Source: an uncultured Sphingosinicella sp. (GTDB taxonomy: Bacteria; Pseudomonadota; Alphaproteobacteria; Sphingomonadales; Sphingomonadaceae). From it: 64,000 nucleotides of DNA. Below the pieces are notes generated by a model that ran no database searches, had not been told where the DNA came from, and saw nothing but the letters and a program-made list of their open reading frames with translations. This document shows positions 54,693 through 61,641 of the stretch, piece after piece (position 1 is the first letter of the stretch; every line of letters starts with the position of its first letter). A program made the position numbers and the translations under genes. Location: contig NZ_CADCWD010000041.1 in the NCBI RefSeq assembly GCF_902806315.1, forward strand, positions 1 through 64,000, in the 5' to 3' direction.

Positions 54693-55067
54693 TCAGCAGC
54701 CGACGCAGTCCCTCACGATCGTGAGGAGCGCGCCGGGCGCGTAGGGCTTGGTGAAGAAGATCGCGTCCTTCGGGTACGCGTCGCCCGAGGGGCGGACCGC
54801 GCCCGAGACGATCAGGATGCGGACGTGCGGGAAGCGCTCGGCCACAAGCCTGGCGAGCTGCACACCGTCGCCGTCCTCGCCGATGCTGATGTCGGTGACG
54901 AGCACGGCCGTCTCCGGCTGCGACTCCAGGGTGGCAACGGCGTCCGAATAGCAGCTCGCGCCCAGGACGTTGTAACCGTCATGCTCCAGCAGGTCAGCGG
55001 TCGCGCGCATCACGAGCGGCTCGTCCTCCACCACGAGGACGGTCTTGGCGGCGATAGCAGTCGACAT
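54693..55067 (-). CDS. single-domain response regulator
   Basis: A 124-residue protein consisting only of a receiver domain. The acidic pair Glu14-Asp15 (VVEDEP), the phospho-acceptor Asp59 (VLVTDIS) and Lys107 (FFTKPYAPG) are in place. Without an output domain it probably works as a phosphate shuttle, or by binding a kinase. It lies 133 bases downstream of a histidine-kinase-like gene on the same strand, and an Hpt protein is encoded nearby, so a phosphorelay link is plausible. Confidence 0.9.
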   Translation of the reverse strand: MSTAIAAKTVLVVEDEPLVMRATADLLEHDGYNVLGASCYSDAVATLESQPETAVLVTDISIGEDGDGVQLARLVAERFPHVRILIVSGAVRPSGDAYPKDAIFFTKPYAPGALLTIVRDCVGC

Positions 55068-55200
55068 GTGATGAGCACCCCTTGGTCACAGGCATGCCGC
55101 AAGCGCGACAGCCGGGGTAAAACTCTGAGATGCCCTGCGGCGTTCCCGAACGACTACAATTCCATCGTCGCTCTGCGACGATACGGTCCCCAGCCGGGAC

Positions 55201-56595
55201 TCAGCGCGCCGGAAGCGTGAAGGTGAAACGGGCGCCTTGCCCGGGGGCACTGTCCACCTTGATGTCGCCTCCCATCGCGCGCGCCAGCCGGCGGGCGATG
55301 TAGAGGCCCAGGCCGGTGGTGCCGGCTTCGGTGGTATCGACGCGCTCGAACTTCTCGAAGATGCGCTCCTGATCCTCGGCGGCGATGCCCTTGCCCTGGT
55401 CCGCGATGCAGACGGAGGCCGAGCCGCCCTCATTGTCGAGGCGAACCCAGACCTGTCCTCCTTCCGGCGAATAGCGGATCGCGTTGGTCAGCAGGTTCAT
55501 CAGGATTTGCAGCACGCGCTTGAACTCGCCCGTGGCGGGCAGCGTCTCGTCCTCGGCGGGACGATCGAGCTTCACCTTGCGGTCCGCGGCACGAACCGAC
55601 AGCAGGCCGGCCGCGCCCCGGGCAAGGTCGGCGAGGTCGATCTCGTCGGCTTCGGGCCGGAAATCCGGACGCTCAATCGCCTGCAGGTCGACGAGGTCGT
55701 CGACGAGCGCGAGGAGGTGGCGCCCCGCAGTGGCAATGTCCTGCGCGTAGCCGGCATAATCGCGGCGGATCGGCCCATCGGGCTGCGCACCGATCGCCTC
55801 AGCATTGGCGATGATGTGGTCGAGCGGCGCGCGAAGGGCCTTGTCGAGCCGCTCGCCGAATGCGGGCACGTCCGAAAGCTTGGGAAGCTCCTTCGGCTCG
55901 GGCGCGGTCGCCACCGGCGTCAGCCAGTTGGGAATGCTGCTCGCATGGCCGTGAAAGCCGGAAAAGCGGCCGGCGCCGTCAATCAGCGGCACGCCGCCCA
56001 ATCGAAAGCGGCCGCGCGATCCACCGCGCAACTCGGCGAACTGGTCATCAAAGCGGCGTTGCTCCGCGAGCGCGTCGAGGATCGCGAGCGAACCATCCTC
56101 CGCTTCCACGAAGCGGAACAGGCGCGTCAGCTGCTTGCCAATCAGCTCGGCCGGCGTGCGGCCGACCGCCGAGGCGGCGGCGGGCGAGACCGAGGTGAAG
56201 CGAAGCGAATCATCGGTTTCCCAGACCCAGTCGGCGGCGGCACGCAGGAAGTCGGCCTCGCGCTGGTCCTCCGGCTCAGCGAAGGGCGAGCGGGCGGCGC
56301 GCTCGGTCCAGCCGCTGATCGCGAGGTCGATCTCGGCATCGCGCGGCTCGGCGCGGACCCAGAGGTCGAGGTCGCGCTCGCCATCGGCCGCGGTGACGGG
56401 GCGCGAGACGACAATGCCAAGGCGGCGAGCGAGCCGTGCAAGGGCGGCAACCTGCGGAACGGCGAGCGGACCGCCCTCCTCGCCCCCCGCGCGCCGATGA
56501 AGACCGGCAAGCTTCGGGTCGGCCGCGATCAGTCGGCCGTCCTGATCGAGGCGGCCGCGGACGACGGGCAAATCGGGCGCCCTCTGCTCGCTCAT
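55201..56595 (-). CDS. PAS-HATPase sensor kinase lacking the canonical phospho-histidine
   Basis: A protein of 464 residues: a PAS domain at about 115-220 (ADWVWETDDSLRFTSVSPAA), a HisKA-like dimer region at about 245-310, and a complete HATPase (LMNLLTNAIRYSPEGG, VCIADQGKGIA, GTTGLGLYIARR). In the HisKA region the expected 'SHELRTPLN' reads DKALRAPLD, so the phospho-acceptor His is replaced by Lys252; His260 lies one turn later. It may be a pseudokinase, use another residue, or act through ATP binding. No transmembrane segment is seen. ATGA overlap with the DUF2336 gene implies joint translation. Confidence 0.88.
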   Translation of the reverse strand: MSEQRAPDLPVVRGRLDQDGRLIAADPKLAGLHRRAGGEEGGPLAVPQVAALARLARRLGIVVSRPVTAADGERDLDLWVRAEPRDAEIDLAISGWTERAARSPFAEPEDQREADFLRAAADWVWETDDSLRFTSVSPAAASAVGRTPAELIGKQLTRLFRFVEAEDGSLAILDALAEQRRFDDQFAELRGGSRGRFRLGGVPLIDGAGRFSGFHGHASSIPNWLTPVATAPEPKELPKLSDVPAFGERLDKALRAPLDHIIANAEAIGAQPDGPIRRDYAGYAQDIATAGRHLLALVDDLVDLQAIERPDFRPEADEIDLADLARGAAGLLSVRAADRKVKLDRPAEDETLPATGEFKRVLQILMNLLTNAIRYSPEGGQVWVRLDNEGGSASVCIADQGKGIAAEDQERIFEKFERVDTTEAGTTGLGLYIARRLARAMGGDIKVDSAPGQGARFTFTLPAR

Positions 56596-57638
56596 GCCGC
56601 GCCGCGCGGCTCGCCGATGCGGATCAAAGCGGCGCGATACGCGGGATCAAGCGACCAGAGGCTGAGCGCGCGACGTGCGGCGGCTTCGTTGGTGACATCG
56701 AAAAGATCGACTGCGGAGGCGAGGCCCGCCTCGTCCGTGATGGAGCCCAAGGCGATCAGAATGGCGGCGGCTTCCTGGCGCGGAATGCCCGCGGCGCGAA
56801 GAAGATAGACGAGCCCGCGGCCGGCGGGGTCGGAGAGCACGTCCCACACCGAGGCGTATGAGAGGCCCGTGCGGACGGAGAGCCCGGCGAGGAAAAGCGT
56901 CAGGGTGCCGCCTGTTAGGAAGGACAGGAAAGCCGCTCCGTCGAGCCGCTCCGCTTCGCCGAGCCGCTGGGCGAGGCGTACGCTTCGGGCATCGAGAGTG
57001 TCGCCTTCGTCATAGGCGCTCAGGAGCGTTCCGGCGGCGGAGGCGAGCGCGGAGTCGGCTGCGGCCGGGTCGATGCCGTGCTGGTCCGCCATGTAGCGGC
57101 GAAGGGCGGCGGCGATCGTCCAGACCAGGCGGTGCTGCACATCGGCGGGAAGCTCGGTGCGGGCGAGGACGGGATCGTGGAAGCGATCGAGGCGGCGGCT
57201 GCGGCCGGTGAGCACGGCCATGGCCGTGGCGGCGATCGCGGCGTCGCGGTCGGCGATCAGCGTCTGGAGCGCGTCGTCGGCCCGGGACGCGCCCCGGTAG
57301 ATGCGGTGCTCCTCGACGCGGCGGAGCAGAATCGCCACCAGTTCGGGATCGTGCAGCGCCTCCGAGCGCGCGAGCAAAGGCACAACGATCTGCACGTGAG
57401 CCGATGCGAGCGCGGCCTGAAGCGCGGCTTCGCCAGCGAATGTCTCGGCCAGGCTGGCGCGCAGCTCGTCCTCGATGGCGCGGACCAGCTTGTCGAGCAA
57501 AGTGCGAACGGTCGCGCGCTGCCTGTCGCTCAGCCGGAGCGTCTCCGTGAGGAAGAGATCGGTCGTCGCGACCGCACGGCGATGCGAGGCGGCAAGCAGC
57601 AGCCGCGCGGCATCATCCTGTCGAGCAGTCTCGGCCAT
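56592..57638 (-). CDS. DUF2336 domain protein
   Basis: A 348-residue, mostly alpha-helical, Ala/Leu/Arg-rich protein of the DUF2336 type, which is common in Alphaproteobacteria and has no assigned role. Repeated helix pairs such as DPELVAILLRRVEE and DADLLAAIAR-like segments suggest a HEAT-like array. No catalytic motif or membrane segment is visible. The frame is open farther upstream; ATG 57638 gives the likely natural start (MAETARQDDAARLLL). The stop overlaps the kinase ATG (ATGA), so the two products are probably made in fixed ratio and may form a complex. Confidence 0.75.
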   Translation of the reverse strand: MAETARQDDAARLLLAASHRRAVATTDLFLTETLRLSDRQRATVRTLLDKLVRAIEDELRASLAETFAGEAALQAALASAHVQIVVPLLARSEALHDPELVAILLRRVEEHRIYRGASRADDALQTLIADRDAAIAATAMAVLTGRSRRLDRFHDPVLARTELPADVQHRLVWTIAAALRRYMADQHGIDPAAADSALASAAGTLLSAYDEGDTLDARSVRLAQRLGEAERLDGAAFLSFLTGGTLTLFLAGLSVRTGLSYASVWDVLSDPAGRGLVYLLRAAGIPRQEAAAILIALGSITDEAGLASAVDLFDVTNEAAARRALSLWSLDPAYRAALIRIGEPRGAA

Positions 57639-57672
57639 GCCATTGCATAGCGTGTCCAAGGTTAAGCCCGCG

Positions 57673-58905
57673 CTAATCCTGAGGCCCTGCCGTGGGTGGG
57701 CGATGCACTTCCCGCTGCGCCCAGAAGAAGGAGCCCGCCGCATAAACTGCGAGCGCGCCGAGACCCGTCACCCAGGCCCCGGTGATCGCGAAGGGCAGCA
57801 GGAGCCAGCTCATCCCCTTGCGCTCCGCGAAGAAGAGCCGTTCAGGCAAGCGCCGCGCGCGAGTTTCGAACTGAAGCGCCACCAGAAACGCGATCGTCGC
57901 CGCGGCGATCGCGACGCACCCCCAGCCGCGCGTTTCGGAAAGGCTGTAGCTCAAGGTGCCGAGCGCGGCGCCTGCAATCCAGGGCAGGACACGGGCGGCG
58001 AGGCTCCCCTCCCCACCCGGTTGCAGCCGCATGGCGGCAAGCCGCTCCGCAATCCCGTCGAGCGGCGTTGCGAGCAGGAGCGTCACGAGACCGACCAGCA
58101 GCCAGCCTTGAAGAAAGAGCAAGGCGGCGAGTCCGGTCAGCGCGCCGGCGCCGACATAAAGCATGCCCGGCGTGATCGAGGTCGGCATCAGCGGCCGGCT
58201 GGCACTCGCCTCGAGAGGAGCGAGCAGGTAGCGCGACACCCAATCCTCGCGCGCGACGCCGGCGCCGGAGACAATCCGGGCATGGGCGGCCGCAAGATCC
58301 GATATACGCTCGGCGATCACCACCGGCTGGTCGGCGGCATCGCCCCGCACGGCGACCTGGCGGGCGCCTTCCTGGACGGCGCGGCGAAGCAGAGTGGACT
58401 GGAGATCCCAATCCTGCAGCGTCGCGGCGGTGCGGCGAAGCGTGTCTCCGTCCAGCAGCGCCAGGCCCGCCCAGCGCGTGTCGGCGTCGATCCGTTCGAA
58501 GCGGTCGTCTGCGCCGGCTTCCGGAAGCGTCAGGACGGCAGGGCCGCGCGCTCCGGCAAAGCGGGAAACGTGGGTATCCTGGGCCAGCACGCCATCGGCG
58601 AAGACCAGCAACCCATCCTCCGCCCGTATCGCCTCGGCGGCATCCTCCACGCTGCGTACGACGACAGCGCTGACGCCTTCGGAGCGCATGCGATCGATGG
58701 CGGCGATGAGCTCGGCCGGGAGGCGCTCGACGAGGATGACGATGGGAGTTGCACCCGCCACCGCTGCAAGCCGCGCCTGCCGTTCGACGAGCGTGCGGCC
58801 GGCCAGCGGCAGCGTCGCACGAAGGCCACCCGGGGCGTCCGCGGCATCATGATAGGCACAGATGAGAGCAGCCAGGCCCAACGCGAACAATCCCTCCGGA
58901 GGCAA
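57673..58905 (-). CDS. nucleotidyltransferase-like protein fused to a membrane domain
   Basis: A 410-residue protein I cannot assign firmly. The N-terminal half resembles a sugar-phosphate nucleotidyltransferase fold (LRATLPLAGRTLVERQARLAA, then EDGLLVFADGVLA), but without a clear GxGTRxxP loop. The C-terminal half has about five hydrophobic segments and a degenerate DG..A-R stretch (TPLDGIAERLAAMR), recalling CDP-alcohol phosphatidyltransferases fused to cytidylyltransferases in inositol-phosphate lipid synthesis. Key Asp residues of that motif are missing, so the activity may be lost. It is between the DUF2336 and Hpt genes on the same strand. Confidence 0.55.
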   Translation of the reverse strand: MPPEGLFALGLAALICAYHDAADAPGGLRATLPLAGRTLVERQARLAAVAGATPIVILVERLPAELIAAIDRMRSEGVSAVVVRSVEDAAEAIRAEDGLLVFADGVLAQDTHVSRFAGARGPAVLTLPEAGADDRFERIDADTRWAGLALLDGDTLRRTAATLQDWDLQSTLLRRAVQEGARQVAVRGDAADQPVVIAERISDLAAAHARIVSGAGVAREDWVSRYLLAPLEASASRPLMPTSITPGMLYVGAGALTGLAALLFLQGWLLVGLVTLLLATPLDGIAERLAAMRLQPGGEGSLAARVLPWIAGAALGTLSYSLSETRGWGCVAIAAATIAFLVALQFETRARRLPERLFFAERKGMSWLLLPFAITGAWVTGLGALAVYAAGSFFWAQREVHRPPTAGPQD

Positions 58906-58952
58906 GCCGACAGGGATAGGCGGCCCTCATGCCGCCCGCAATTCGGTTCGGC

Positions 58953-59255
58953 TTATCGTACGGCGAAATCGTCGATTGCGGCATCGATGCGGCGCAGGAC
59001 CGACGGGTCCCCGGGTGCGCCGTCAAGCGCGTCCTGGGCAAGCGCCTGAAGGTTCACGGCGCCGAAGCTCGCGGCCAGGCTATGGAGCCTGGAGGCGGCA
59101 ACGTGCCAGTTCGCATCGCAGCGCGAGCGGCCCATCAGGTCCGACTGGCGAAGCGCGCTTTCGATGAAGGCGGCGCGCAATTCGGCCATCAGATCGCCGT
59201 CGCTGCCGACAGCGGCGGCGAGTGAGGCGTTCAAAGCTCCGGGATCGTAGACCAT
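58953..59255 (-). CDS. Hpt domain protein
   Basis: A 100-residue, all-helical protein with a histidine-phosphotransfer pattern. The candidate phospho-His58 lies in RLHSLAASFGA, matching 'HxLKGSSxxxGA' except that Lys-Gly are both Ala. Hpt proteins relay phosphate between receiver domains. The lone receiver protein and the atypical kinase encoded 2-4 kb away on the same strand are candidate partners. It leads the leftward series of this region. Confidence 0.7.
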   Translation of the reverse strand: MVYDPGALNASLAAAVGSDGDLMAELRAAFIESALRQSDLMGRSRCDANWHVAASRLHSLAASFGAVNLQALAQDALDGAPGDPSVLRRIDAAIDDFAVR

Positions 59256-59337
59256 CCGTTCGCCCTAGCCGACAGGGGGTTAAGTTCTCCTTTCCGGAGC
59301 GTCTTTGCAGCGGGCCATTTCGTGTTAAACATACGTC

Positions 59338-61641
59338 ATGAGTATGGGGGCGTCGCGCGCCGAAGCGCATCAGCCGGATGACGGCATTGGGGTTGACCAT
59401 GATGAAGATTGGGCAGCCATTCCCTTGAGCGGAAACAATGCGCCGCATATCGCCTGGAGCCGCGCCGCGGACGAACCGGAGCCCGAACCAGAGAAAAGGC
59501 TGCTTGGTCCTATCCTGATCGGGGCGGCGGTGATTTGGGCCGCGCTTGCGACCTGGGTGGCAATGGCGGGCAGTGCGGCCGGTGCGCTCCCCAACCTGAT
59601 GCAATGGTTTGCGCTGATGAGCGCGCCGCTGGCCGTGCTGGGGCTCGCCTGGGTGCTGTTCGGCGGCACGACTCGCCGCGACGCGGAAGGCTATACCCGC
59701 GCGGTCACCGAGATGCGGAAAGAGAGCCAAGCGCTCGAGGGGCTGCTTGCGGCCGTGACGGCAAGGCTCGACGAGAATCACGGAAAGATCACAAACGAGG
59801 CGACCAAGCTGATGGCGCTCGGCGACGAAGCGTCGGACCGGCTCGGCCGCGTGGCGCATTATCTGTCGAAGGAAAGCGCCAAGCTCGACTCCAAATCGGA
59901 GGCGCTGGAGAAGGCCGCCGAGAAGGCGCGCAACGAGTTTGGCGCGCTTATGAGCGATTTGCCCAAGGCCGAGGAGCAGGCGCTCCAGGTCGCGGAGCGG
60001 ATGAAGGAAGCGGGCCTCACGGCTCATTCGCAAGCGGGCGCACTCGAGGGACAGCTCTCCGCGCTGATCGCCCGCGGCCGCGAGGCGGACGAAGTGGTCG
60101 GGGGTGCGGCCCAGCGGCTCGGCGCGCATCTCTCGCGGGTCGAAAGCACCTCGGGCGCGGCGACCACGCGCATGCAGGAAGCTGCCAGCGCAATGGCGGA
60201 AACTGTCGACAGCACGATGGCGCGGGCGGCCGAAGCGGTCGATGCGGCGCGGATCGGGCTGGAAGCCCAAGGCTCCGCTATGATGGCGATGATCGAGCAG
60301 AGCCGGGCCGCGCTCGATCGCGCCGGCGAAGATGCGACGCGCAATCTCGGGCAGCGGCTCGAAGCAATTGGCAGCAAGATCGAGGGGTTCGCCGCGCATC
60401 TGGCGGCCCAGGACGCGGCGAGCCAGACGCTCGTTACCAGCCTCGGCAAGGATCTGCGCGAGCTCGACGAGCGCTTCCTTGCGCTCCGCGAAACTGGCGC
60501 GGGCACCTCCGACAGCCTCGGCGGCGCGATCGAGACGGTCCGGTCGTCGATGCGGCAGCTGACCGAGGAAATCGGCGGAAGCAACGAACGTGCGACCTCG
60601 CTGATCGAGCGGGCGCGCGAAATGGCGGGTGCGATGAGCTCGGTCACCGAGCAGCTCACGGCCGATGTGCCGGCGGCGCTGGACCGCATTGAGGAGCAGG
60701 CCGAGCGGGCACGCTCTTCGGTCTCTTCGATCGCTCCGAATGTCGAGGCTGTTGCCGGATCAGCGGATGCGGCGGCGGCACGGCTTGCGGAAGCGGAGGC
60801 CACCTTGCTGCGCCAGCAGGAGGCGCTCGAGGCCATGCTGTCGCGGCTCCAGCAAGGGGTCGGGACGGCGGAGGAGCAAATCCGGGCGCTTTCCACCGCG
60901 GTCACCGAAGCCGACCAGGCAACCGGCAAGATCGTCAACGACACCGGGCCGGAGCTGATCGAATCGCTGGTCCGAGTGCGCGAAGCCGCAGCTCAGGCGG
61001 CCGAGCGGGCACGCGAAGCGATCGCCGCAGTCATCCCGCAGAGCGCCGCCGCGATTGGGGCGGCGAGCCGGGAAGCCATTGGTCAAGCGGTCGGCGACGC
61101 AGTCGGCCACCAGATGGAGGAACTCTCGGCCTTGGCCGAGCGGACGCTTGAAACGGCGCGCAAGGCCTCGGAAGGGCTGACGCGCCAGATGCTGACGATC
61201 GGCAAGACGACGGCTGCCGTCGAGGAGCGGATCGACGAAGTGCAGAAGGAACGGGAGGCGCGCGACAGCGAGAACTTCTCGCGGCGTGTGGCGCTGCTGA
61301 TCGAATCGCTCAACTCGACCGCGATAGATGTCACCAAGATCCTGTCGAACGAGGTCACCGACAGCGCCTGGGCCGCTTACATGAAGGGAGACCGCGGCGT
61401 TTTCACGCGGCGTGCAGTGCGGCTGCTCGACACCAACGAAGCGCGCGAGATCATGCAGCATTACGAGGCGGAGCCGGAATTCCGGGAGCAGGTGAACCGC
61501 TACATCCACGACTTCGAGTCGATGCTGCGGCGGATCCTGGCCGACCGCGACAGCTCGGCGCTGGGCGTGACGGTGCTGAGCAGCGACATGGGCAAGCTCT
61601 ACGTCGCGCTCGCCCAAGCGATCGAGCGGATCCGCGCCTAG
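59338..61641 (+). CDS. membrane-anchored long coiled-coil protein of unknown function
   Basis: A 767-residue protein. An acidic N-terminal tail of about 50 residues is followed by two transmembrane segments (about 56-78 and 87-109), then about 500 residues of heptad-rich, Ala/Glu/Arg-dominated helix. The helix resembles methyl-accepting or apolipoprotein-type coiled coils, but no HAMP or chemotaxis signalling hairpin was recognised. The last 120 residues, from about SRRVALLIESLNSTAIDVTKILS, look globular and better conserved in style. Similar proteins are called 'ATPase' or 'kinesin-like' in databases, but no P-loop is visible. A structural or septum/envelope role is a guess. No good ribosome site is seen. 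Confidence 0.8.
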   Translation: MSMGASRAEAHQPDDGIGVDHDEDWAAIPLSGNNAPHIAWSRAADEPEPEPEKRLLGPILIGAAVIWAALATWVAMAGSAAGALPNLMQWFALMSAPLAVLGLAWVLFGGTTRRDAEGYTRAVTEMRKESQALEGLLAAVTARLDENHGKITNEATKLMALGDEASDRLGRVAHYLSKESAKLDSKSEALEKAAEKARNEFGALMSDLPKAEEQALQVAERMKEAGLTAHSQAGALEGQLSALIARGREADEVVGGAAQRLGAHLSRVESTSGAATTRMQEAASAMAETVDSTMARAAEAVDAARIGLEAQGSAMMAMIEQSRAALDRAGEDATRNLGQRLEAIGSKIEGFAAHLAAQDAASQTLVTSLGKDLRELDERFLALRETGAGTSDSLGGAIETVRSSMRQLTEEIGGSNERATSLIERAREMAGAMSSVTEQLTADVPAALDRIEEQAERARSSVSSIAPNVEAVAGSADAAAARLAEAEATLLRQQEALEAMLSRLQQGVGTAEEQIRALSTAVTEADQATGKIVNDTGPELIESLVRVREAAAQAAERAREAIAAVIPQSAAAIGAASREAIGQAVGDAVGHQMEELSALAERTLETARKASEGLTRQMLTIGKTTAAVEERIDEVQKEREARDSENFSRRVALLIESLNSTAIDVTKILSNEVTDSAWAAYMKGDRGVFTRRAVRLLDTNEAREIMQHYEAEPEFREQVNRYIHDFESMLRRILADRDSSALGVTVLSSDMGKLYVALAQAIERIRA

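Follow-up and report, generated by a model that had tools for sequence, protein, structure and literature searches.

A histidine kinase and an Hpt protein that both lack the phospho-accepting His share a conserved locus in Sphingomonadaceae and may belong to a split PdhS-type kinase system

We analyzed a 64,000-nucleotide stretch of DNA from an uncultured Sphingosinicella sp. (contig NZ_CADCWD010000041.1 of assembly GCF_902806315.1, positions 1 to 64,000 of the forward strand; hereafter the window), which carries a cluster of signaling genes around an atypical histidine kinase, here called HK-A. A preliminary description of this DNA had listed four reading frames in the cluster, for the kinase, a receiver, a DUF2336 protein and a histidine phosphotransfer (Hpt) protein. 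All four were present, and a fifth gene, encoding a nucleoside triphosphate (NTP)-transferase-like protein, was found in addition. The genes are transcribed from the minus strand in the order Hpt-like, NTP-transferase-like, DUF2336, HK-A and receiver (Table 1).

Table 1. Coordinates of the features of the locus (positions in the window)
Feature	Position	Strand	Basis
HK-A: PAS, degenerate HisKA/dimerization and histidine phosphotransfer (DHp) domain with the phospho-His missing, and intact HATPase_c; 464 amino acids	55201..56595	-	
DUF2336 protein, distant SpbR relative	56592..57638	-	Pfam PF10098
NTP-transferase-like protein with membrane part (by eye)	57673..58905	-	weak PF12804 match and synteny
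Pseudo-Hpt, 100 amino acids, phospho-His missing	58953..59255	-	Pfam Hpt match below cut-off, all-helical AlphaFold model, His-bearing relatives at the same place
Single receiver domain, accessory	54693..55067	-	Pfam Response_reg, 49.4 bits
Lys252 codon, phospho-His place of HK-A	55840..55842	-	
Ser55 codon, phospho-His place of Hpt	59091..59093	-	
His58 codon, Lys place of H-x-L-K-G in Hpt	59082..59084	-	
Divergent neighbor: N-terminal hydrophobic segments (by eye) and long coiled coil	59338..61641	+	
Divergent promoter region with TTAA elements	59256..59337	not applicable	

The locus recurs among relatives of the window. HK-A and DUF2336 were detected by tblastn in 20/20 stretches from the same genus, and 17 of the 20 have the order Hpt, NTP-like, DUF2336 and HK-A; the exceptions were one locus without Hpt (L045), one without Hpt and the NTP-like gene (L035) and one at a contig end (L030). 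In the same-genus stretches, the coiled-coil gene and RNase J border the locus at one end and gltA/gltX at the other. The same order was seen again in many stretches from other Sphingomonadaceae genera, and the named relatives that carry the locus are Sphingosinicella, Sphingomonas, Sphingobium, Blastomonas, Erythrobacter and their kin. This recurrence of a four-gene order is beyond chance. Hpt was detected in 161 of 249 family genomes with a profile built from the genus; a broader profile detected it in 99 of 149. The other-genus stretches cover 40 of the 161 Hpt genomes, and the named loci 80 of 252.

We compared HK-A with canonical kinases at the phospho-site and in the ATP-binding domain. 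The segment L-D-K-A-L-R-A-P-L of HK-A aligns with the canonical M-S-H-E-L-R-T-P-L, which places Lys252 at the phospho-His position, as the preliminary description had read it. Its HisKA match in Pfam reaches 15.9 bits, below the cut-off of 26.9, and the ATP (adenosine triphosphate)-binding domain, which had been called intact, matches HATPase_c at 107.8 bits against a cut-off of 26.4. HK-A has the HATPase_c domain with N, G1 and G2 motifs of an autophosphorylating HisKA kinase and lacks its phospho-acceptor His.

To count residues, we dropped identical sequences, rows gapped at the site and seven kinase matches below 150 bits (five of another paralogue, HK-B, described below, one fragment cut by a contig end and one other kinase), and read the site in sampled loci, a subset of the 121 genomes with HK-A. 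Position 252 was Pro in 57, Gln in 13, Arg in 11, Lys in 9, Ala in 6, Ser in 2, Thr in 2, Glu in 1 and another residue in two of the 103 distinct sequences; His occurred in none of them, nor in a fuller tally of 120 rows. The neighboring canonical Glu, at 253, is Ala or Val in 94/103, and position 256, four residues after the His, is Gln in 64/103. The ATP motifs N371, D399, G401, G428 and G430 were all kept in 102 of 102 scorable HK-A sequences, and HK-A probably binds ATP. Chemistry on a lysine at 252 appears very unlikely, since family orthologues vary freely at this position and none has His. The preliminary description, which had raised a phosphorelay of this kind, took homologues with His at 252 as the observation that would speak against it; inside the derived clade there are none, and outside it His occupies this position in six early-branching genomes and four sister-family loci.

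The Hpt protein has also lost its site. The window sequence AASRLHSLAASFGA aligns without gaps with its relatives (xRLKGLAASF), so that Ser55 lies at the phospho-His place and His58 at the Lys of H-x-L-K-G; the earlier statement that the protein lacks Lys-Gly after its His was a misreading of His58 as the phospho-site. Among 115 distinct sequences, position 55 is Trp in 35, Leu in 29, Ser in 15, Ala in 9, Met in 9, Gln in 8, Glu in 4, Val in 2 and Arg in 2, and a tally of 138 rows identifies the two remaining residues as Tyr and His, leaving a single His in 115. Arg56 is kept in 114 of the 115 and Lys at 58 in 102, and the His58 of the window reads as a local change at the usual Lys. Judging from these alignments, the phosphate-carrying residue is missing from both the kinase and the Hpt protein. 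This fits the other suggestion of the preliminary description, a pseudokinase sensor complex: family-wide, kinase and Hpt are without the phospho-acceptor His, and both are conserved.

We considered a relay of novel chemistry, in which HK-A would phosphorylate an unusual residue of its own or of the pseudo-Hpt. The candidate residues Lys252, Ser55 and His58 are all present in the window, but the positions change without pattern among relatives, from Pro, Gln, Arg, Lys and Ala at 252 to Trp, Leu, Ser, Ala and Met at 55, and His58 occurs in just 3/115. The alignments already contradict such a relay, which we regard as barely credible.

We examined the assignment of this small protein to Hpt. Its own Pfam Hpt score, 17.2 bits, is below the cut-off of 24.6; the family profile, however, shows it to be homologous to Hpts that occupy the same place and have the His, and the two of these that were scanned exceed the cut-off (36.6 and 30.7 bits). 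The sole His-bearing Hpt among the derived ones, in L191, falls below it. The AlphaFold model is all-helical (predicted local distance difference test, pLDDT, 82.1), and Hpt chains rank high in the fold search, in which no Foldseek match reached E ≤ 0.001 and engineered four-helix bundles tied in Z. Nothing useful was found among the sequences of solved structures. Within the genus, identity to the window copy is 70-79%. Plants also have pseudo-HPt proteins, of the AHP6 type, which are Hpts without the phospho-His; the protein described here shares this lack, and differs in being bacterial and in sharing one locus with a His-less kinase.

To follow the origin of HK-A, we looked at its His-bearing relatives. 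Its best relatives in sister families, at four loci, are whole kinases that have both HEL(R/K)TPL and the ATP motifs, and the two scanned with Pfam pass both cut-offs; in all three stretches that extend far enough, a DUF2336 gene lies directly upstream of the sister-family kinase. Six genomes of the family itself (G047, G052, G080, G092, G095 and G124) have a canonical, His-bearing HK-A. In a tree of 56 rows and 205 columns, computed with the phospho-site excluded, 41 His-less HK-A sequences fall on one side of a single branch (Shimodaira-Hasegawa-like approximate likelihood ratio, SH-aLRT, 88), nested among HEL(R/K)TPL kinases and with DivL outside. His-bearing Hpts, likewise at the same place and divergent to the coiled-coil gene, were found in G045, G080, G095, G124 and G138. 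In G124 a complete locus, both His included, lies in one 14-kilobase (kb) stretch, with about 3.4 kb extra between the DUF2336 and NTP-like genes.

These comparisons show that the ancestors of both proteins had the His and that it was lost from each. Since early-branching relatives keep the His, that of G124 in the same locus, HK-A descends from a normal kinase of the DivJ/PleC (PdhS) type, and with His in the early-branching orthologues and the sister families, the Lys of the window replaced a lost His. We take this lineage to be PdhS from its motif and from matches to the DivJ and PdhS models of NCBIfam, which fall far short of the cut-offs. Canonical PdhS-type kinases (DivJ, PleC, PdhS) are its closest relatives and share with it the pairing of a DUF2336 gene with the kinase gene, common to the sister families; they keep HEL(R/K)TPL, whereas HK-A does not. 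The two losses are imperfectly tied. A strictly concerted loss is opposed by G138, where a short kinase without the HE motif (by eye) accompanies an Hpt with His, and by L191, where the Hpt His goes with Pro in HK-A.

A second kinase-like protein, HK-B, mirrors HK-A. In the genome of the window it is encoded away from HK-A (G000:C7:1355-2995). A search of 13 same-genus genomes, this one included, found it in 12, all but G008. Elsewhere it lies near the locus: about 2 kb from Hpt in four Sphingopyxis stretches (L160, L181, L182 and L190) and in one from Sphingomonadales (L150). In four genomes of two genera (G082, G161, G084 and G163), HK-B is 2.2 kb from Hpt while HK-A is at least 135 kb away or on another contig; because HK-B adjoins Hpt there, we tied it to the HK-A locus. 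Profile comparison showed HK-A and HK-B to be homologous from the PAS to the ATP domain (318 columns, 99.1%).

In Pfam, three of three HK-B family members score 35-38 bits for HisKA, over the cut-off, and have no HATPase_c match at E ≤ 1; one early-branching HK-B reaches 14.4 bits for HATPase_c, below the cut-off. Among 52 HK-B sequences read, 49 keep the His-Glu/Asp pair, one (G157) the Asn of the N box and none an aligned D-x-G-x-G. We further scored the residues conserved in nine canonical kinases in 28 HK-A and 42 HK-B sequences, leaving out G047 for a misplaced stretch. Their retention was 37% in HK-A vs 66% in HK-B for the phospho-helix, 64% vs 26% for the second helix and 63% vs 23% for the ATP domain. 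One genome thus holds a His-less ATP half and an ATP-dead His half, the two parts expected of a split kinase. In the predicted HK-B structure (mean pLDDT 74.5), a helical N-terminus is followed by a PAS-like part, a DHp pair and, at the C-terminus, an alpha/beta part. The structures that match it are kinases, RetS and DivL among them. RetS and GacS are two different kinases in mutual contact (also the title of PDB 7n0e); RetS is among the best kinase matches of HK-B by fold, with no sign of RetS ancestry. A by-eye impression that the N-terminus of HK-B is a fused DUF2336 was dropped after a profile comparison gave E 0.29.

We then scored HK-A, HK-B and DivK in 149 family genomes, with thresholds of E ≤ 1e-45 for HK-A (minus two generic kinase matches, in G062 and G085, which were scored as lacking HK-A), E ≤ 1e-25 for HK-B and E ≤ 1e-28 for DivK. 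HK-A and HK-B occurred together in 119, HK-A alone in 2 (G063, and G092 with a canonical HK-A), HK-B alone in 8 and neither in 20. DivK was found in 124 of the 129 genomes that have at least one of HK-A and HK-B, and in 3 of the 20 that have neither. All 46 genomes read that have HK-A (41 taken as His-less and 5 canonical) keep the His-Glu of HK-B, as do both G121 (66% complete) and G156 (87%), which were scored as HK-B only and may just be incomplete. Of four complete genomes without HK-A, G045, in whose stretch the HK-A profile found no match, alone keeps it; G067, G068 and G086 (L305, L306 and L307) still have HK-B, with the His-Glu broken. These three form one clade (support 99), and their three broken motifs differ.

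DivK itself differs among these genomes. Compared with Caulobacter DivK, it is 66-74% identical in five of the six genomes whose HK-A is canonical (over 95 residues in G047), DivK not being found at the threshold in the sixth, G095; the identity is 68 and 73% in G045 and G138, 45-59% in genomes with derived HK-A and mostly 66-82% in the remaining families of the order. The DivK of the window's genome has PDB DivK as its best match. This genome also encodes a DivL separate from HK-A (L203, with SYELRTPL; best match PDB DivL 4q20). HK-A as the DivL orthologue was rejected, as it has Lys rather than Tyr and as L203 is DivL and falls outside the HK-A clade. No whole PdhS kinase close to HK-A was found among 30 of the 32 ATPase-domain matches of the own genome, in which the runners-up score 114-115 bits with the HK-A profile, compared with 183-249 for the canonical kinases of sister families.

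One might regard the locus as vestigial, a set of remnants of a degenerating DivJ/PleC/DivK system. Brilli et al. 2010, in the excerpts consulted, report DivJ-PleC-DivK as degenerate or completely lost in Sphingomonadales (PMC2877005), some genomes lack the locus, and DivK has drifted in the derived genomes as given above. Decay of this kind is difficult to reconcile with an Hpt as conserved as that of the genus, with invariant ATP motifs, with a gene order repeated across genera and with HK-A, HK-B and DivK being mostly present or absent together. We consider it highly improbable.

Instead, we propose that HK-A and HK-B together form a split PdhS-type kinase, in which HK-A phosphorylates HK-B and HK-B feeds the divergent DivK, and put the probability of this reading at about one half. 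The catalytic domain of HK-A would bind ATP and, having no His of its own to phosphorylate, would act on the His of HK-B, which has an intact phospho-helix and a dead ATP site; from HK-B the phosphate would pass to DivK. In favor of this stand the reciprocal decay of the two homologous proteins, their joint occurrence with each other and with DivK, the His-Glu kept wherever HK-A was present, the position of HK-B next to Hpt in two genera, and an own genome that has DivL and DivK and, among the matches examined, no close whole PdhS kinase. The pseudo-Hpt and DUF2336, made with HK-A, may serve as docking or control subunits: the pseudo-Hpt, most relatives of which retain the basic R-x-K motif, could bind a receiver and accept no phosphate itself, and DUF2336, as a relative of SpbR, may place the complex. 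The wider statement, that in most sampled Sphingomonadaceae the DivK kinase is divided into two full-length paralogues, an obligate pair with a non-phosphorylatable Hpt adaptor, we advance more tentatively.

Several observations weigh against this proposal. In the window's genome, HK-B does not adjoin HK-A. The co-occurrence of HK-A and HK-B (Fisher p 2e-16) is uncorrected for kinship, and G063 has a His-less HK-A without HK-B at the threshold used. The ATP site of HK-B is already dead in 5/5 of the canonical-HK-A genomes read, and inspection by eye gave the same for two family f4 genomes; an ATP-dead HK-B in genomes whose HK-A is whole implies that HK-B changed first and that the His of HK-A was lost later. 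HK-B may accordingly have a role of its own, for example as a ChpT-like phosphotransferase. The decay of His-Glu without HK-A spares G045, and it counts as a single event because the three broken genomes are one clade. That HK-B persists there without His-Glu implies that it does something besides phosphotransfer, so a further role is possible. Finally, the split kinase leaves the loss of the Hpt His unexplained.

The strongest rival is that HK-A is a DivL-like, non-catalytic pseudokinase, part of a scaffold with the pseudo-Hpt and DUF2336. This scaffold would read or sequester a receiver, DivK~P for example; ATP binding would only set the shape of HK-A, and HK-B would be a separate ChpT-like phosphotransferase. 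DivL, according to the parts of PMC4211667 consulted, has Tyr for His, binds DivK~P and acts without kinase or phosphatase activity. A scaffold would account for the loss in HK-A of the residue after the His and of the one four positions on, for an equally dead Hpt in the same locus, for an HK-B that predates the loss of the HK-A His, and for its persistence without HK-A in G045, G067, G068 and G086. It would be harder to square with ATP motifs invariant in 102/102, as DivL binds an ATP analogue weakly (same parts of PMC4211667), with a phospho-helix, part of the usual receiver interface, much altered in HK-A (37% retention), with a separate DivL already encoded, and with the decay of the HK-B His-Glu in the clade without HK-A. 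We regard the scaffold as less likely than the split kinase.

The split kinase would have a partial precedent. In the sections of PMC3591291 available to us, CheA3/CheA4 of Rhodobacter sphaeroides have the ATP domain without the phospho-His in one protein and the phospho-His without the ATP domain in the other, 1556 of 42417 HisKA proteins surveyed lack a detectable ATPase domain, and split kinases modelled there give switch-like, bistable responses. CheA3/CheA4 are chemotaxis CheA proteins with a P1 domain, whereas HK-A and HK-B keep the HisKA-type layout, have lost motifs only and are encoded apart in the window's genome, and transfer between them is predicted. DivL (PDB 4q20) is similarly kinase-like, without a phospho-His and connected with DivK signaling, as the same parts of PMC4211667 have it; HK-A differs from its Tyr and weak ATP binding in having no fixed residue and invariant ATP motifs. 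No description of the HK-A locus or of a split PdhS kinase was found in open-licence PMC papers. The data suggest that DivJ-PleC-DivK of Sphingomonadales was not simply lost, and may have been rebuilt from two complementary pseudoenzymes and a dead Hpt. If so, a HisKA-type split kinase would have become fixed in much of a bacterial family and would account for DivJ/PleC seeming to be lost there, and a bistable response would suit a cell-cycle decision. The early-branching, His-intact genomes make the order of the losses testable.

The remaining members of the locus were compared in the same way. The DUF2336 protein matches PF10098 at 105.7 bits (cut-off 34.6) and has no solved relative by sequence. 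SpbR, described in a partly consulted source as a Caulobacter cell-pole protein, belongs to the same protein family, but the SpbR model NF052659 of NCBIfam gives 74.9 bits against a cut-off of 400. The stop of the DUF2336 gene and the start of HK-A share 4 bases (56592-56595), which agrees with the translational coupling given in the preliminary description. In L098, L115 and L143 there is almost no gap between the NTP-like gene and HK-A, and DUF2336 is missing there. Four Erythrobacter-like loci have a gene of about 325 codons at its place, between the NTP-like gene and HK-A (L088:3149-4144, L096:3110-4078, L102:5224-6195 and L168:9607-10575), with zero Pfam matches in the four scanned. The NTP-like protein scores 16.5 bits for PF12804, below the cut-off of 27; an NTP-transferase-like domain fused to a membrane part is conserved within this signaling locus.

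The receiver looks functional by eye, as described before, and lies outside the conserved locus: phmmer found no counterpart in 140 related stretches (an overlapping set with some genomes twice and some stretches ending earlier), and the 20 same-genus loci gave one weak match of 38%, on the opposite strand, in L038 only.

The coiled-coil protein is the steadiest neighbor of Hpt; its gene adjoins Hpt in 37/40 other-genus stretches, with no match in L107, L111 and L114. It has no family match over cut-off, and its layout may be TipN-like. In the promoter region between the two genes, a TTAA element, mostly (G/C)TTAAC, was present in 48 of 48 distinct upstream regions. Rather than a full CtrA box, the region upstream of Hpt usually has just one TTAA element, which may be a CtrA half-site. 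With up to two mismatches, TTAA-N7-TTAA was found upstream of Hpt in 46/51, compared with 20% in shuffled sequence, 11/55 upstream of RNase J, 14/106 upstream of the NTP-like gene and 2/38 upstream of HK-A.

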